From: Streptomyces sp. Q6
GTDB taxonomy: Bacteria > Actinomycetota > Actinomycetes > Streptomycetales > Streptomycetaceae
DNA length: 64,000 nucleotides
Assembly: GCF_036967205.1 (NCBI RefSeq)
Contig: NZ_CP146022.1
Coordinates: 930,001 to 994,000 of the forward strand
Direction: 5' to 3'
Shown: positions 797 through 8,729 of the stretch, piece by piece
How positions within the stretch are numbered: position 1 is the first letter of the stretch
Layout of the letters: each line of letters starts with the position of its first letter
Translations under genes and position numbers: made by a program
Notes under the pieces: model-generated
Databases searched by the model: none
What the model was told of the DNA's origin: nothing
The model's input: the letters and a program-made list of their open reading frames with translations, nothing else

Positions 797-860
797 GGCT
801 GCACACCAGCGATTCCGGGAATTCGCACAAGGCCAATGAACCCCGGGAGGGAGGAAAGCC

Positions 861-941
861 ATGAAGAAGATTTCCGTCCGCAAGGCGGGCCCGATCCGTC
901 TGACCACCGCCTGCTACTACCTCTGCGGCGACGCCGCGTAA
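861..941 (+). CDS. 26-residue two-cysteine peptide, candidate RiPP precursor
   Basis: ATG at 861 follows an excellent ribosome site 4-5 bases upstream. The peptide starts MKKISVRKAGPIRL, a basic N-terminal half typical of a leader. It ends TTACYYLCGDAA, with Cys18, Tyr19, Tyr20, Cys22 and Asp24 as possible modification sites. At 26 residues it is close to the size of PqqA or MftA, the precursors of peptide-derived cofactors. The next gene encodes a PqqD-like domain fused to an intramembrane-type protease, the usual partner set for a ribosomally made, modified peptide. I do not recognise the family. The precursor role is inferred from size, ribosome site, downstream hairpin and neighbours. Confidence 0.65.
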   Translation: MKKISVRKAGPIRLTTACYYLCGDAA

Positions 942-953
942 TTCCAGTCCACA

Positions 954-995
954 GGTGGGAGCCGGGCCGCCTTCGGGGCCCGGCTCCTTCCCACC
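954..995 (+). terminator. Strong hairpin between peptide gene and downstream genes (attenuator-like)
   Basis: GGAGCCGGGCC (958-968) pairs perfectly with GGCCCGGCTCC (977-987) across an 8-base loop. Flanking GGTG and CACC extend the stem with a small bulge. There is no T-tract, which is common for Streptomyces terminators. Lying 13 bases after the peptide stop and 28 before the protease gene, it would favour high peptide mRNA with limited read-through, as often seen after RiPP precursor genes. Confidence 0.65.
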
Positions 996-1022
996 GTTCC
1001 CACCCGCGGGAGGGGGTGCCGG

Positions 1023-2228
1023 ATGACGCAGCTGACGCGGACCGTGCGTCTGCACCGGCTCACGATGGTCGACGAGGACGACGGCGTGATGGTCGGCAGG
1101 CCCGACGTCGGCTCGTACGCGGTCTTCCCCGAGGAAGGGGCGCAGGCGCTGCGGATGTTCGCCGACGGGGTGCCCGTCGACGAGGTCGGCGCCTGGTACG
1201 AGCGCACCTGCGGGGCGCCGCTCGACATGGCGGACTTCCTGGAGACCCTGGCCGACCTGGAGTTCCTGCGTACCGACGAGGAGGCCGACGCGCCGGGCAC
1301 GGTGCGCTGGCAGCGTCTGGGCCGCGCCGTGTTCTCCTGGCCGGCGTGGCTCGCGTACGCCGCGCTCGTGGCGGGCGCGGTGACGGCGATGGTGCGCGAC
1401 CCCGGCCTGCGGCCGACGTACCACCAGGTGTTCTTCACCGACTACGTGTCGCTGATCCCCGTCACGATCTTCGCGCTCGCCATCCCGTGCATCGTCGTGC
1501 ACGAGGGCTCGCACGCGCTCGCCGGGCGCCGGCTCGGCCTGCCGTCGACGCTCGGGCTCGGGCGCAGGCTCTACTACCTGGTCGCCGAGACGCGGCTCGA
1601 TTCCCTGCTGAGCGTCGAACGCAAGAAACGCTATCTTCCGTTCTGCGCGGGCATGCTGGCGGATGTCGTCCTGTTCTGCGGGCTCACCCTCCTTTCGATT
1701 CCGCTCGACGGGCACGGTATTCCGTCCTGGATTCACAAACTCTGTCTCGCTGTCGCCTTCACCTGCGTCCTGCGCCTCATCTGGCAATTCCTGTTCTATT
1801 TGGAAACGGACCTGTATTACGTGGTGACGACAGCGGCCCGTTGTACGGATCTCCAGAACGCGACCCGTTTCCGGCTGCGCTCCGGACTGCGCCGGGCACT
1901 GCGCCGCCCGCCCACCGGGGCCGACACGGAGTACTCGCCGCGCGACCGTTCCGTGGCCCGCTGGTACGCGCCGCTGCTGGTCGCCGGGTACGGGTTCTCG
2001 CTCGCCTCGCTCGCCTGGGCCGGCCTGCCGACCGCGCTGCATTTCTGGTCGACGATCGTCGACCGGCTCGGCGGGGCGGAGACCTCGTTCTGGGAGCTCT
2101 TCGACGCGGCCGTGTTCATCGCCCTGTCGGGGTCGCAGATCGCCCTGCTCGTCCACGTCACTCTGCGGGACCGGCGCGAGCGCGCCCGGTCCCGGACCAC
2201 CACCGCACCGCAAGGAGCCCTGCCATGA
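1023..2228 (+). CDS. PqqD/RRE-like domain fused to M50-type membrane zinc metalloprotease
   Basis: A protein of 401 residues. Residues about 20-85 resemble a PqqD-type RiPP recognition element (GRPDVGSYAVFPEEGAQALR followed by a helical part ending ADLEFLR), which in known systems binds the leader peptide. Residues about 105 onward are membrane segments with HEGSH at 160-164, the HExxH zinc site. A later ETDLYYVVTTAARC stretch around Asp263 fits the third-ligand region of M50 relatives. At least two further hydrophobic segments lie near the C-terminus. The likely role is recognition and cleavage of the peptide encoded upstream, at the membrane. GC content drops around 1590-1850, unlike its neighbours. 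ATG at 1023 is preceded by GGGAGGGGG. The stop overlaps the next start (ATGA). Confidence 0.8.
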   Translation: MTQLTRTVRLHRLTMVDEDDGVMVGRPDVGSYAVFPEEGAQALRMFADGVPVDEVGAWYERTCGAPLDMADFLETLADLEFLRTDEEADAPGTVRWQRLGRAVFSWPAWLAYAALVAGAVTAMVRDPGLRPTYHQVFFTDYVSLIPVTIFALAIPCIVVHEGSHALAGRRLGLPSTLGLGRRLYYLVAETRLDSLLSVERKKRYLPFCAGMLADVVLFCGLTLLSIPLDGHGIPSWIHKLCLAVAFTCVLRLIWQFLFYLETDLYYVVTTAARCTDLQNATRFRLRSGLRRALRRPPTGADTEYSPRDRSVARWYAPLLVAGYGFSLASLAWAGLPTALHFWSTIVDRLGGAETSFWELFDAAVFIALSGSQIALLVHVTLRDRRERARSRTTTAPQGALP

Positions 2229-4419
2229 CCGCTCTGTCGACCCGTCACCGGTGGCTCGACGCCACCGCACGGCCCACCGACGCCGGGCCGCCGCCCGCCG
2301 CGTCCCTGGAGGTGCGCTGCCACCGCCGGTTACGCGGGCCGTTCACCGCCGCGCACTTCCTGCTCAACCGGGCGGTGCCCGAACTCGTCGCGCGGGATCG
2401 CGAGTTGGTGGCCGCCGCACGGGCCGCCGAGGTGGAGGCCATCGCGCCGGAACTGCTCGCGATCGTGCCGACACCGCCGCAGACCCTCACCCAGCTCGCC
2501 GTGGCGACGGAGCGCACCCGCTTCTATCCGGCGACCCGGGCGCTGCGCATCGCGCACGGCGTCGCCGAACTCCTCATGGACTGGGCCAGGTTGACGCGTC
2601 CGGGCGGGGTGACGATCGTCTTCCGGGACCTGGACGACGCCGACCCCACGGACCGCGACCTGGTGGCGGTGCTGCTGCGCCGCTGCGACCCGGCGCTCCT
2701 GACCGTCGTCGTGGACGGCGCGGGGGCCGCCGACGACCTGCTGGGCACGGCGCTCGCCGCGCACACCGTGCGCACGCCCCGCATCCCGCGCGTCGACCCG
2801 GAGCTGCTGCCCGACACGGATCTCGCGCAGCTGTTCATCGACTCCGACGGCACCAGCGGCGATCCGCGCCTGCGCCGGGCGTACGCGGCACTGCCCGCGG
2901 CCGAACGGGCCCGCAGGCACACCGCGCGCGCCGCGGTCCTCGCCGCCCGGGACGAGCCGACGCTGCGGCTCGGCGCGATCCCATACCACCTGGAGCGGGG
3001 CACCGACCCGCGGGGCGCGGGCGTCGACGCCATCGCGGAGGCCGTCAACTCCTGCTTCGCCAAAGGGTTCTACGAGGCCGTGGTCGACCTCGCGCTGCGC
3101 GGCCGCGCCCTGCTCGCCGACGAGGAGCCCGGCCGTACGTACTGGAACCTGACCCACAAGGCCGGCGCGTGCCTGTGCTACCTGGGACGCGGCGCGGACG
3201 CCTTCGCGTACTTCGAGGAGATGCGGCGCGGCTCGACGTCGGCGGACGCCCACATGGGGACGGCGTACCTGATGGCGATGCTCTACACGCGCTTCCTGCC
3301 GAAGGACGACCACGACGAGGATCTCGCCCTGGCCTGGGTGAACACCGCGATCTCGATCGCCGACGTGCACCCCGATCCGCACAAGCGGGTCCTGGTGCGG
3401 GCGTTCATGCGCAACGCGCGCGCCCTCGTGGAGCTGCACCGCGGCGACGCGGACGCCTCCCTCGCGCTGGTCGACGAGGCGATGGCGATCACCGACGCCG
3501 ACTTCGGCCCGGACGAGCAACTCCTGCACCGCTCGGTGCTGTTGTACAACCGGGCGCAGGTGCGCGGGGCCCGCCGCGACCACACGGCCTCGCTGGAGGA
3601 CTACGACGAGGTGATCCGCCGCGACCCGGACTACGGGGACTACTACTTCGAGCGGGCCGCGCAGCACCGCGCCCTCGGGCACCACCGGGAGGCGCTCGCG
3701 GACTACGCGACGGCGATCCGGCTCACGCCGCCGTTCTACGAGGCGCACTTCAACCGGGCCGATCTGCTGCGGGAACTGGGCGACGACGCGGGTGCGCTGC
3801 GCGACCTGGACCGGGCCCTCGATCTCGAACCGGACCATGTCGACTCGCTGATCCACCGCGCCGATCTGCTGCTGTCGCGCGGCGGGTTCGACGCGGCCCG
3901 CGCCGACATCGACCACGGCCTGTCGCTCGCTCCGGCGAACGCCCGACTCCTGACCGCACAGGGGGCGTTGGAGGCGGAGCTGGGTGACGCAGAAGCGGCC
4001 TTCGCCAGCTACTCGCAGGCGCTGCGCGCGGACCCGGCGTGCGCCGCCGCGTGGGCGAACCGGGCCGTGCTCGCCTTCGACGCGGGGGACGCGGAGCGGG
4101 CGGCCCGCGACCTCGACGAGGCGCTCGCGCTCATGGACGACGCCGAGTTGCGGACCAACCGGGCGGTGGCGCTCCAGGCCCTCGGCGAGCACGGGCGCGC
4201 GGCGGACGACCTGGACCGCGCGGTGGCGGCGCTCGACGGCGTCACCGACCCGGAGCTGCTGTATCTGCGGGGCGTCAGCCGGTTCGCGCTCGACGACACG
4301 GAGGGCGCGCTCATGGACTGGCGGGCGCATCTGGCCGCGTACGAGGACGACGACGCGTCGCCGCACGCCGCGGAGATCCGTGCCCGCGCCGGTTCGGCGC
4401 TGCGGGAGGAGCGGCGTGA
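2225..4419 (+). CDS. Large tetratricopeptide-repeat protein of the peptide locus
   Basis: Starts at ATG 2225, overlapping the protease stop. Residues about 25-190 resemble the front of actinobacterial STAND/TPR proteins (RRLRGPFTAAHFLLNRAVPE and a later VTIVFRDLDDADPTDRDLV), but no Walker A motif is visible, so it is probably not an ATPase. From about residue 270 to the end it is helical TPR repeats, clearest around DYDEVIRRDPDYGDYYFERA and its successors. It may act as a scaffold between peptide and enzymes. Leu36 is encoded by TTA (2330-2332). The frame has no stop until 5491. A TGA one frame away at 4417-4419 overlaps the next GTG start, so one base is probably missing at about 4412-4417 and the true protein is near 731 residues. 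Confidence 0.7.
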
Positions 4420-4970
4420 GCCGGACCGACACCACCCGGCACCTGACGGTGGCGCCCGCGGCGGGCGCCGCCGCCGAACCGGAGCGTTCCGACGTCGTGC
4501 GGTCCGTGCTGCGCCGGCACGCCAAGGGCGTCGCCGTCGTCACGGTCGGCGGCGAGCGCCCGGTCGGTTTCTGCGTGACGTCGCTGGCCTCGCTCTCCCT
4601 CGACCCGCCGCTGATGTCGTTCACGGTCGGGCTGCGCTCCACGTCGTGGGGCGCGGTCCGGGACGCGACCTGGGTGATGGTGCAGCTTCTGGCGGCGGGG
4701 CAGGAGGACGTGGCGCGGGTCTTCGCGGGGCCGACCCCGGCGCGGTTCGGCCCCGGCACGTCCTGGCACCGGGACCCGCTCGGCCTGCCCGCGCTCGACG
4801 GGGTCCTCGCGCGCTTCGTCCTGACGCCGGTCAGCCGCCGCCCGGTCGGCGATCACGCCCTGGTCATCGGGCTCGTGGTGCGCGCCGGACGGGGCGCGGA
4901 CGCGGGGCCGCTGGTGCACCACGACGGCCGGTTCGTCGACCTGCCGCGCGTGTGCGACCCCGCCGTCTGA
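4416..4970 (+). CDS. Flavin reductase-like FMN-binding protein
   Basis: 184 residues, the usual length for the flavin reductase-like split-barrel family (HpaC/ActVB relatives). The family pattern appears as VLRRHAKGVAVVTV, then GFCVTSLASLSLDPPLMSFTV, ending with LVHHDGRFVDL. Such proteins bind FMN and either supply reduced flavin to a monooxygenase or catalyse their own redox step. No monooxygenase is nearby, so in this locus it may act directly on the peptide or its product. GTG at 4416 overlaps the preceding TPR gene (GTGA) and follows GGAGGAG. Confidence 0.85.
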   Translation: MSRTDTTRHLTVAPAAGAAAEPERSDVVRSVLRRHAKGVAVVTVGGERPVGFCVTSLASLSLDPPLMSFTVGLRSTSWGAVRDATWVMVQLLAAGQEDVARVFAGPTPARFGPGTSWHRDPLGLPALDGVLARFVLTPVSRRPVGDHALVIGLVVRAGRGADAGPLVHHDGRFVDLPRVCDPAV

Positions 4971-5933: not shown

Positions 5934-6020
5934 CCCCCGTGCGAAACGATCGCTTGTCCCGTCGTACCGGGCGACGCCACGATGAGCCCGTCACCGACCA
6001 TCACTCCGAAGGGCTTCGTC

Positions 6021-7084
6021 TTGCGTGTCGCGATTCTGGCCGACGACCTCACGAGCGCCGGGGACGGCGCGGCCCCGTTCGGTGCGGCGCGCGTCGTGGT
6101 GGCGCCGCCGCACGCGCCGCCACCGGCCACGGACGGCGTGCTGGCCGTCGACCTCGCCACCCGTACCGCCTCGGTGGCGGTCGCGGCGTCCCGCACGGAG
6201 CGCGCCGCGCGCCTGCTCCGTGGCGCCGACCTCCTGATGAAGACGGTGGACTCCACGCTCCGCGGTCATCTCGCCGCCGAGACGGAGGCGGCCCGGCGCG
6301 GCTCCGGGCGCGGTACCGTCATCGTCGCGCCCGCCTTCCCCGCCGGGCGCCGCGGCACCGTCGACGGAATCCAGTACGTCGGTGACGTCCCGGTCCACCT
6401 GAGCGAGTTCGGCCGCGATCCGGTGCATCCGGTGCGCTCCGCGAACCTGCGGGAGGTGCTGCCCGGAGCGGTGCTCGTGGCCCGGGGGGAGGTCCCGGAC
6501 CGGGAGGCCGGCGGGGTGTTCGTGTGCGACGCGGTGACCGACGCCGACCTCGACCGGCTCGTGGCGGCCGCACCGCACCCCGGCGACGCCCTGTGGGTGG
6601 GCTCCCCGGGCTCGCGGCGGCACTCGCCCGTCGGTGGCCGACTCGCCCCGCGCCGCCCGTGCCGCTGCCGCCCGTCGCCGCCCCGCTCGTCGTCGTCGGC
6701 AGCGCCCACCCGGCCTCGCGCCGTCAGCTCGCCGCGCTCCGCGAGGCCGCCCCGTACGTCCGCGTGGTGCACACCCCGGACGACCGGCGGGATCCGGGCG
6801 GCCTGCTGCCGGGGCTCGCCGAGCAGGTCCGCGCCCACGTCACCGGCGGCACGGCCGACGCTCTCGTGCTGACCGGAGGCGAGACCGCGGCGGCCGTGCT
6901 CGCCGCGCTCGGCGCCGACGGATTCGACCTGCTCGCCGAGCCCGAACCCGGGGTCGCCCAGGGCCTCTTGACCGGCTCCCCGCGCATCCCGCTGGTCATC
7001 AAGGCGGGCGGCTTCGGCGACGACGGGACGCTGGCGCGGCTGTGCCGCGCCCTGACGACCGCCGTGCCGGACGGTGCCGCGTGA
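6021..7084 (+). pseudogene. Four-carbon acid sugar kinase family protein (frameshifted)
   Basis: The first half reads in one frame (RVAILADDLTSAGD, then LMKTVDSTLRGH, the DUF1537 N-domain) to about 6604. The second half continues in another frame (GLAAALARRW, VVVGSAHPASRRQL, then LTGGETAAAVLAALG and PRIPLVIKAGGFGD, the nucleotide-binding C-domain). One missing G at CCCCGGG (about 6604-6610) explains the break, so the reconstructed protein has about 354 residues. Family members (DtnK/OtnK type) phosphorylate D-threonate, D-erythronate or related acids at O4. TTG 6021 has GAAGG upstream and gives the typical RVAILADDLT start; ATG 5982 in the same frame has no ribosome site. It overlaps pdxA by GTGA. 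Confidence 0.8.
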
Positions 7085-8016
7085 AGCCGCTCGCGCTCAC
7101 CCTGGGCGACCCCGCGGGCATCGGACCCGAGATCGTGGTGAAGGCCTGCGCCGATCCTTCGCGGACGGTGCCCGTGACCGTGATCGGCGACCCGGGCGTC
7201 CTGGCCCGCGCGACCGCGTCGACCGGTGTCCGCCTCCCCGAGGACGTCGACGTCGTGGCCGAGACGCGGTTGCGGCCCGACGTGCGGTGGGGCGAGGTGG
7301 ACGCCCGTGCCGGCGCCGCCTCGTACGCGTACATCCGTCGCGGTGTCGAGCTGACCCTCGCCGGTGAGACGCGTGCGCTGGTCACCGCCCCGATCAACAA
7401 GGAGGCACTGCGTCTCGCCGGGATCGGCCACCCCGGGCACACGGAGATCCTCGCCGAGCTGTCCGGAACCGGCGACTACGCGATGATGATGGCCAACGAC
7501 GAGCTGCGGATCGTCCTGGTGACGGTGCATCAGTCGCTGCGGTCGGCGCTGGACGCGCTCACCGTCGAGCGCGTACGCGACGTCATCCGACTCACCCACC
7601 GCACGCTGCGGCGCTCGGGGCAGACCGCGCCGCGCATCGCCGTGGCCGGGCTGAATCCGCACGCGGGCGAGAACGGGCTCTTCGGCCGCGAGGACCTGGA
7701 CGTCATCGCCCCCGCCGTACGGGCGGCACGCGCCGAGGGCATCGACGCGAGCGGGCCGTGGCCCGCGGACACCGTGTTCATGCGGGCCCGCGCCGGGGAG
7801 TTCGACGTGGTCGTCGCCCAGTACCACGACCAGGGGCTCATCCCGGTCAAGTACCTGGGCATCGAGCACGGCGTGAACATCACCATCGGGCTGCCGTTCG
7901 TGCGCACGAGCGTCGACCACGGCACCGCGTTCGACCTCGCGGGCCGCGGCGTCGCCGACCACACGAGCCTCCTCACGGCGCTGCGCCACGCCGACGCGCT
8001 GACGACCCCCCGCTGA
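7081..8016 (+). CDS. pdxA: PdxA-family dehydrogenase (4-hydroxythreonine-4-phosphate or 4-phospho-sugar-acid dehydrogenase)
   Basis: 311 residues with all PdxA landmarks: LGDPAGIGPEI at the start, HPGHTEILAE (metal/substrate His), GLNPHAGENGLFG and VAQYHDQGLIPVKYLG. PdxA oxidises 4-phosphohydroxy-L-threonine with NAD. The PdxA2 subgroup oxidises 4-phospho-D-threonate or erythronate followed by decarboxylation to dihydroxyacetone phosphate. Coupling to a four-carbon acid kinase by a GTGA overlap points to the PdxA2 catabolic role. Streptomyces normally make vitamin B6 by PdxS/PdxT, so a biosynthetic role is unlikely. Confidence 0.92.
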   Translation: MKPLALTLGDPAGIGPEIVVKACADPSRTVPVTVIGDPGVLARATASTGVRLPEDVDVVAETRLRPDVRWGEVDARAGAASYAYIRRGVELTLAGETRALVTAPINKEALRLAGIGHPGHTEILAELSGTGDYAMMMANDELRIVLVTVHQSLRSALDALTVERVRDVIRLTHRTLRRSGQTAPRIAVAGLNPHAGENGLFGREDLDVIAPAVRAARAEGIDASGPWPADTVFMRARAGEFDVVVAQYHDQGLIPVKYLGIEHGVNITIGLPFVRTSVDHGTAFDLAGRGVADHTSLLTALRHADALTTPR

Positions 8017-8045
8017 AAGCACACCACGGCACACGGAGGCATCCC

Positions 8046-8729
8046 ATGGACTTCATCCTCATGCTCACCCGCGCCGACCGCACCGTCTCGGACTGTCTGC
8101 GGGCCCTCGACGCCGTCGCGGACGCCGGCGTCCGCCACATCGGCTTCAAGGACATCGGCGTCGACCACGCGACGCTGAAGGAACTGGCCTCCCGTATCGG
8201 CGACTTGGGGGCGACCAGCTATCTGGAGGTCGTCAGCACGGGGCGCGAGGCCGCGCTCGACTCCGCGCGCGCCGCGGTCGATCTCGGCGTGGACCGGCTC
8301 ATGGGCGGCACCTGGGTGGAGGAGACCCTCCCGCTCCTGGACGGCTCGGAGATCGCCTACCTCCCCTTCGTCGGCGATCCGATCGGGCACCCCACCCGCC
8401 TCGGCGGCACACCCGGGAAGATCGCCGCAGACTGCCGCCGGGCCGAGGCGGCGGGGTGCGCCGGTGTCGACCTGCTCGCCTACCGGACCACCGGCGACGA
8501 TCCGCTCGCCCTGGTCCGCGCGGCGCGGGCGGCGACGGCCGGGCGGCTCGTCGTCGCGGGCGGCATCACGGGGCCGGCGCAGATCGAGGCGCTCGCCGCC
8601 GCCGGAGCGGACGCCTTCACGGTCGGCTCCGCGCTCTTCGACGGCAGCGTCGACCCGAACGCCGCGACGCTGGCCGCGCAGCTCGCCCCGATCCTGGCCA
8701 CGACGGCCACGACCGGCGGCGGCCACTGA
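8046..8729 (+). CDS. TIM-barrel phosphate-binding protein of the sugar-acid operon
   Basis: 227 residues starting MDFILMLTRADRTVSDCLRA, with ATG at 8046 after CGGAGGC. The end shows the HisA/HisF or ribulose-phosphate-binding barrel pattern: LVVAGGITGPAQIEALAAAG followed by ADAFTVGSALFDG, which forms the phosphate-binding site. Mid-protein FKDIGVDHATLKEL may hold catalytic Lys/Asp. It lies 29 bases after pdxA, so it probably acts on a phosphorylated three- or four-carbon intermediate, for example as an isomerase, epimerase or aldolase. The exact reaction is not recognisable. Confidence 0.65.
   Translation: MDFILMLTRADRTVSDCLRALDAVADAGVRHIGFKDIGVDHATLKELASRIGDLGATSYLEVVSTGREAALDSARAAVDLGVDRLMGGTWVEETLPLLDGSEIAYLPFVGDPIGHPTRLGGTPGKIAADCRRAEAAGCAGVDLLAYRTTGDDPLALVRAARAATAGRLVVAGGITGPAQIEALAAAGADAFTVGSALFDGSVDPNAATLAAQLAPILATTATTGGGH

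Follow-up and report, generated by a model that had tools for sequence, protein, structure and literature searches.

The window analysed here is a 64,000-nucleotide stretch of Streptomyces sp. Q6 DNA (contig NZ_CP146022.1, positions 930,001 to 994,000), and its coordinates count from its first letter. Near its start, a forward-strand operon carries a gene for a 26-residue peptide, a membrane protease of the M50 type with an N-terminal domain resembling the recognition element (RRE) of ribosomally synthesized and post-translationally modified peptides (RiPPs), a tetratricopeptide repeat (TPR) protein and a flavin reductase (Table 1). The initial annotation, made from this sequence, had described an 81-bp gene with a strong ribosome site heading an unassigned RiPP-like system. 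The open reading frame (ORF) and its Shine-Dalgarno region are confirmed, as are the TPR protein and the flavin reductase, the latter by PF01613 (107.3 bits against a cut-off of 27, E 1.1e-30) and by matches to flavin reductases in the PDB.

Table 1. Features of the precursor-protease-TPR operon in the window.
Feature	Position	Strand	Basis
Shine-Dalgarno region of the precursor gene, strong	844..859	+	sequence
Precursor peptide gene, 26 aa, MKKISVRKAGPIRLT-TACYYLCGDAA; leader (residues 1-15) conserved, core with CYYxC	861..941	+	ORF, homologues
GC-rich hairpin in the precursor/protease spacer, possible partial terminator	about 954..991	+	folding
RRE-M50 (site-2 type) membrane metalloprotease, 401 aa (P0002)	1023..2228	+	alignment, profiles
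RRE-like (PqqD-fold) N-terminal domain, about residues 1-90	1023..1292	+	family profiles
HEGSH zinc-protease motif, residues 160-164	1500..1514	+	sequence, alignment
TPR protein (P0003), N-terminal HRRxRGP domain resembling part of AAA_16, no P-loop	2225..4420, window frame open to 5491	+	
Flavin reductase PF01613, facultative putative tailoring gene	4416..4970	+	Pfam, PDB flavin reductases

Judged by comparison with homologues, the 26-residue peptide is the product of a real gene. Set against five close relatives, the window precursor shows synonymous/nonsynonymous differences of 2/0, 5/0, 2/0, 6/0 and 3/1. Its basic N-terminal half had been called leader-like in the initial annotation, which would have taken its reading as refuted if homologous RRE-M50 genes had no such peptide next to them. 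They do have one: a shared leader, roughly MKKIx[VI]RKxGx[VI][RK]LT, precedes the RRE-M50 and TPR genes in all 46 testable loci. These come from 47 protease loci that were read (the window, L033-L056, L119, L144-L149, L197-L203 and L226-L233; 46 with upstream DNA), which we call type I; the locus searches overlap in genomes, and a few loci are near-identical copies. In L231 the precursor is present with an ambiguous start codon. Residues R7, G10, L14 and T15 are invariant among 33 distinct type I leaders, a count that omits L214/L231 and L220/L232, whose starts are ambiguous.

When 295 genomes of the genus were searched with the protease, 42 reached 1e-5 or better. Fifteen of these hold a close homologue (E 3.6e-72 or better); in the others it is 26-35% identical. 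Among the close loci and ten loci from the named collection, the leader ORF lies upstream in 24/24 with upstream DNA, the window included. A peptide profile, built partly from genomes of the same draw, was positive in 14 of the 295, all within the 15 that have a close M50 gene; in the fifteenth, the contig starts inside that gene. The association of precursor and M50 protease is thus far above chance. Wider searches found a close M50 in 8/394 genomes of the class (2.2e-146 or better, versus 1.9e-73 or worse for the rest), the peptide, of either type described below, in 25/150 genomes of the family, and 19/392 positive genomes in a larger search of the genus. Across the phylum, the first peptide profile matched 29/296 genomes at E 0.05, strongly in only two (the window's own and G491). 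The precursor has no match in Pfam (E 1), NCBIfam (E 1) or PHROGs (E 0.01).

Behind this one leader stand 43 distinct type I cores in which nearly every position is variable, as are the C-termini, and in which 10 to 24 residues follow Leu-Thr. Tyr and Cys are both present in 43/43 cores (26/26 in the first set and 17/17 later). Shuffling the core residues placed both in a mean of 24/43 and a maximum of 33/43 cores over 20,000 trials, a comparison that overstates independence because the sequences are related. Eight of the 17 later cores were reached via the TPR domain rather than the peptide profile and then recognised by the leader pattern; the others were found with a profile that includes core columns. 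The nearest Cys lies three residues before Tyr in 15 cores, directly before it in 10 and four to six residues after it in another 10. The window belongs to a clade of ten with CYYxC or CYYxxC, and many type I cores have a single Cys. The initial annotation had also raised the idea of a peptide-derived cofactor; the hypervariable core makes this unlikely for type I.

A leader-binding RRE occurs in about half of prokaryotic RiPP classes, and the N-terminal domain of the protease appears to be of this kind. With a profile of this domain (A8, from 23 family and distant members), the best matches among 177,635 PDB sequences were TbiB1 (5v1u, E 0.0054) and TfuB1 (6jx3, E 0.043), which we take to be lasso RREs. 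The Pfam PqqD model matched 12/23 N-terminal domains at a permissive limit (best 7e-4) and 4/22 full-length members (best 0.029), and none of its matches came from the N-terminal domain of P0002 searched alone. The fusion to a HEGSH protease that the initial annotation had proposed therefore stands, its RRE half by way of family profiles. The HExxH motif (H160, E161 and H164 in the window), D214 and D263 are invariant in all 22 aligned sequences, and hydrophobic segments accompany the motif, so that the HExxH near hydrophobic segments and the distal Asp of M50 site-2 proteases are both present. The Pfam M50 model gives P0002 11.9 bits, under its cut-off of 27.2, and matches 10/22 members at E up to 10 (best 5.7e-4). 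The same architecture is known from daptide biosynthesis, where the leader is removed by MpaP, an intramembrane site-2 protease that carries an RRE fused to its N-terminus (PMC10036551).

The TPR protein follows the protease in 47/47 loci. It is also found where the protease is not: in a second arrangement, type II, the TPR gene comes directly after a precursor with the same leader (MKKIIVRKPGTVKLTGTASVIHKG or a near copy), and the eight type II loci that were read widely, of 14 short ones, yielded no M50 and no flavin reductase. The proteins constant in type I are thus M50 and TPR, and TPR alone is constant across both types. Of the groups searched, a single family of the class has type II, its neighbourhood genes recur between genomes, and G967 and G1005 each hold both types. 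One type II core reads GTSSVIHKG (L189-L196, L224). Upstream of the eight type II loci and L224 lie a GNAT acetyltransferase, for which the core Lys might be the substrate, and a TPR-containing regulator-like protein in which Pfam matched no helix-turn-helix. A search with the TPR N-terminal domain returned 18 genes in 12/100 genomes, and a precursor was present at 16 of the 17 with upstream DNA: at the window gene, at 13 more of type I, at one of type II and, as a divergent variant, at L223. The variant, MKKIIVHKPGTAKLSAAASPRHLT, stands at about 8830 (-) and precedes an M50-less TPR homologue; its genome holds type II as well. At L222/L225 a TPR gene occurs with no precursor found; in L225 (about 6328-8370, +) this homologue is 39% identical and has no recognisable precursor or M50.

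The N-terminal domain of the TPR protein resembles AAA_16 in 8/22 members (best 4.5e-4), and in P0003 the match, under the cut-off, spans positions 79-160 of the 167 in the profile. The Walker A P-loop of STAND/AAA_16 ATPases is absent from 22/22 TPR proteins, and the domain has no match in the PDB. Pfam found no DNA-binding domain in the window TPR protein; BTAD matches in 5/22 members probably reflect TPR-like repeats. From the one locus available to the initial annotation it could not be seen that the TPR partner is constant, that Tyr and Cys are invariant in type I cores or that an M50-less type II exists. Of the four genes whose co-occurrence it had suggested testing, those for the peptide, the RRE-M50 protease and the TPR protein stay together in type I; the flavin reductase does not share their constancy.

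A PF01613 flavin reductase is the next gene on the same strand in 24/47 loci, and L200 has a convergent copy. Six loci of one clade carry an Old Yellow Enzyme (PF00724, assigned by Pfam on L144, L146, L147 and L199) in the same position, and 16/47 have neither, an absence that is uncertain in L149 and L226, whose contigs stop shortly past the TPR gene. Well-supported branches of an M50 tree (45 loci and three outgroups; L042 and L055 omitted, L200 labelled as without flavin reductase) require that the flavin reductase was gained or lost six times or more, a minimum that may drop by one or two if contig ends hide copies. The flavin reductase was therefore rejected as the class enzyme, the role of visible modifying enzyme that the initial annotation had given it. 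It is present in 10/10 rows of the window clade, and because of this constancy it may well matter there. A RimK-like ATP-grasp gene lies beside the Old Yellow Enzyme in L144 (3517-4509, +) and L145 (3363-4355, +), with a Pfam match obtained on L144 only.

A third flavoenzyme, a PF02441 flavoprotein, divergently adjoins the precursor in L047, L048 and L230. Among the 41/47 loci with enough upstream DNA, the precursor ends in Cys in 3/3 loci with PF02441 versus 1/38 without it (Fisher p 0.0004). The three loci have three different cores, in which the terminal Cys was kept while the rest changed. In the pristinin cluster, cysteine decarboxylation is attributed to a flavoprotein of this kind (PMC7794033).

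We conclude, with a probability of roughly 0.7, that these loci form an undescribed RiPP-like family in which an MpaP-like RRE-protease removes the leader and the chemistry probably falls on Tyr and Cys. The locus would be a compact operon whose product is a peptide made on the ribosome and matured under guidance of its leader. The family combines a conserved leader with a variable core, as RiPPs do, and has a domain that, by its sequence, would be a leader-binding RRE. The RRE domain of the protease would bind the basic 15-residue leader, and the TPR protein probably recognises it too, because leader and TPR protein co-occur even without the protease. The core would be modified before cleavage, probably at the invariant Tyr and Cys, the simplest reading being a Tyr-Cys crosslink or another coupled modification. 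The membrane zinc protease would then cut off the leader, the task of MpaP in daptides, to leave a short core, of 10-24 residues if it cuts just after the invariant Leu-Thr. The flavoenzymes would be clade-specific tailoring: the flavin reductase in the window, the Old Yellow Enzyme elsewhere, and, for cores with a terminal Cys, the flavoprotein of the cysteine-decarboxylase type. The Tyr/Cys chemistry could come from the TPR protein or from an enzyme encoded elsewhere, or there may be no covalent step, the product being a signal or a metal ligand. In a bolder version, which we hold to be possible though doubtful, the family is a new RiPP class in which the TPR protein, a degenerate, P-loop-less ATPase-like maturase, binds the leader and installs the Tyr-Cys modification (e.g., a thioether macrocycle); type II would be another form of the peptide-TPR pair, and the flavoenzymes swapped-in tailoring.

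Several observations weigh against a leader-guided RiPP pathway. No enzyme capable of forming a Tyr-Cys bond is common to all loci. The operon has no transporter gene, nor does one recur in the flanks as read, and both Tyr and Cys are absent from the type II cores, which are conserved. The sequence support for an RRE-like domain is modest: with the full-length profile, the only RRE match in the PDB was TfuB1, in fourth place at E 0.45. The more distant L037 and L038 differ from the window precursor mainly at nonsynonymous sites (synonymous/nonsynonymous 3/12 and 4/19), their core having changed. The association of PF02441 with a terminal Cys is one evolutionary event, because L047, L048 and L230 form one clade on the M50 tree. 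Lastly, the TPR frame of the window itself lacks its stop. Of the 4-base overlaps proposed in the initial annotation, that between the M50 and TPR genes is present, and that between the TPR and flavin reductase genes is not. In five close relatives the TPR stop overlaps the flavin reductase start; in the window, the frame stays open through the flavin reductase gene (1088 codons in all) because it has one base fewer near 4411. This missing base is probably an assembly error, because a nearby PF07005 gene (presumably of a sugar-kinase family) at 5982-7084 also seems split across two frames, 5982-6872 and 6524-7084, by what is likely another indel; it could nevertheless be real.

The main rival is peptide signalling: the protease would release an unmodified pheromone, the TPR protein would be its intracellular receptor and the flavoenzymes would be outputs. 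RRNPP-type TPR receptors for peptides occur in Bacillota. The TPR protein is here the only partner common to both types, type II sets a conserved core beside a TPR-containing regulator-like protein with no protease, the variable type I cores could be pherotypes, and SARP-type (BTAD) regulators lie near several loci. The regulators are found near L040, L044, L047, L049, L050, L052, L053, L144-L147, L199, L200 and L203 (by Pfam on L053 and L145, by sequence cluster or eye on the others) and suggest regulation like that of other natural-product clusters. The want of a DNA-binding domain in the window TPR protein, with the BTAD matches probably being repeats, tells against a receptor; the RRE and the linked decarboxylase-type flavoprotein point to peptide modification, and an internal disulfide is impossible in many cores because they have one Cys only. 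We regard signalling as rather unlikely. Less favoured is a metal-binding product or cofactor, in which the Tyr phenol and Cys thiol would ligate a metal that the flavin reductase or Old Yellow Enzyme loads or frees. The Tyr/Cys rule would suit a ligand, and one or other of these flavoenzymes follows the TPR gene in 30/47 loci; however, the 16/47 loci with neither (two at a contig edge), the widely varying Tyr/Cys spacing and the absence of any metal transporter noticed in the flanks as read make this quite improbable.

The initial annotation had placed a hairpin after the precursor. It is present in the window and alone is unremarkable (z -1.75; 12/200 dinucleotide shuffles fold as well), and across the family it recurs: an uninterrupted stem of at least 9 pairs lies 3' of the precursor in 38/42 type I loci, versus 17% of mononucleotide-shuffled spacers, with four further loci falling outside the search pattern. 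A comparable stem occurs in 1/8 type II loci. A partial terminator that yields more precursor than enzyme is plausible. An attenuator, in which the small ORF and hairpin regulate the M50-TPR operon by Cys or Tyr supply, would account for a short ORF followed by a strong hairpin and for the Cys-rich ends in L046 and L149, and is very unlikely because the conserved part is the N-terminal 15 residues, not only Cys/Tyr codons, and type II keeps the leader with no Cys or Tyr and mostly no hairpin; many cores are moreover single-Cys, and the decarboxylase-type flavoprotein goes with a terminal Cys.

An equally remote alternative is that the family belongs, in divergent form, to one of the known RiPP classes (daptide, lasso, epipeptide or lanthipeptide) with its main enzyme elsewhere in the genome. 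Its RRE resembles lasso B1 proteins, the RRE-site-2 protease fusion is as in daptides, PF02441 occurs in three loci, and the search for class enzymes covered the flanks. The initial annotation had remarked on the absence of canonical RiPP enzymes, and none is found among the ten flanking genes scanned, which include amylase, sugar transport, LacI, PF07005, PdxA, a His_biosynth-like protein, AsnC and HAD genes; the flanks of other loci were read by eye.

For each class, the defining genes were absent from the flanks so examined, and membership was rejected on that basis. Daptides share the RRE-M50 fusion and nearby short precursors (PMC10036551). They differ in the leader, with a motif ELExMEAP there, and in a C-terminal Thr that is invariant there and not here; no oxidative decarboxylase, aminotransferase, methyltransferase or DUF-RRE protein was found in the flanks examined, and NF041824, the model of the daptide protease, gives only 8.5 bits where 300 are required. 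Lasso RREs are the nearest solved sequences to the N-terminal domain, which is fused here to M50 rather than paired with a cysteine protease; neither that protease nor an asparagine-synthetase-like cyclase was seen in the flanks examined. The epipeptide protease EpeP and the pearlin proteases TglG and TmoG are likewise M50 membrane proteases that mature RiPPs, TglG and TmoG acting at the C-terminus (PMC10885120). No radical SAM enzyme or peptide aminoacyl-tRNA ligase lies among the ten genes. RiPPs with aminovinyl-cysteine (AviCys; lanthipeptides, thioamitides) share the PF02441 flavoprotein, which stands beside Cys-ending precursors only in L047, L048 and L230, three relatives of one clade, and not in the window; no Ser/Thr dehydratase or lanthionine cyclase was found in the ten genes or, by eye, in the flanks of L047 and L048.

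Distant RRE-M50 homologues (L057-L076, 26-35% identical) are another unassigned RiPP-like system. They stand beside one protein family in 20/20 loci, three members of which match ThiF by Pfam, and 13/20 also carry a protein whose tested member matches M14 carboxypeptidases. A profile comparison of the RRE-like domain with the N-termini of E1-like proteins gave E 0.0037 for one pair, with a probability of 9%. The distant homologues were set aside as members of the present family, having a ThiF partner instead of the TPR protein and no conserved leader that could be found. In the flanks as read, no extra conserved neighbour was seen beyond regulators and clade-specific genes.

In the open-access literature, no such system was described among the matches listed (supplements, subscription papers and bioRxiv lay outside the scope), and six leader fragments gave an unrelated match only. 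The decRiPPter candidate families may hold an earlier, unnamed listing of the family.

If this reading is true, actinobacteria (Streptomyces and others) have a RiPP family whose usual marker enzymes do not adjoin the precursor, and genome mining based on such markers could overlook it. The family offers 43 natural cores under the Tyr plus Cys rule together with a constant partner, and it raises the testable question of whether a TPR protein with a degenerate ATPase-like domain can serve as a leader-binding maturase. The three tailoring exchanges would be natural experiments that link core sequence to enzyme.

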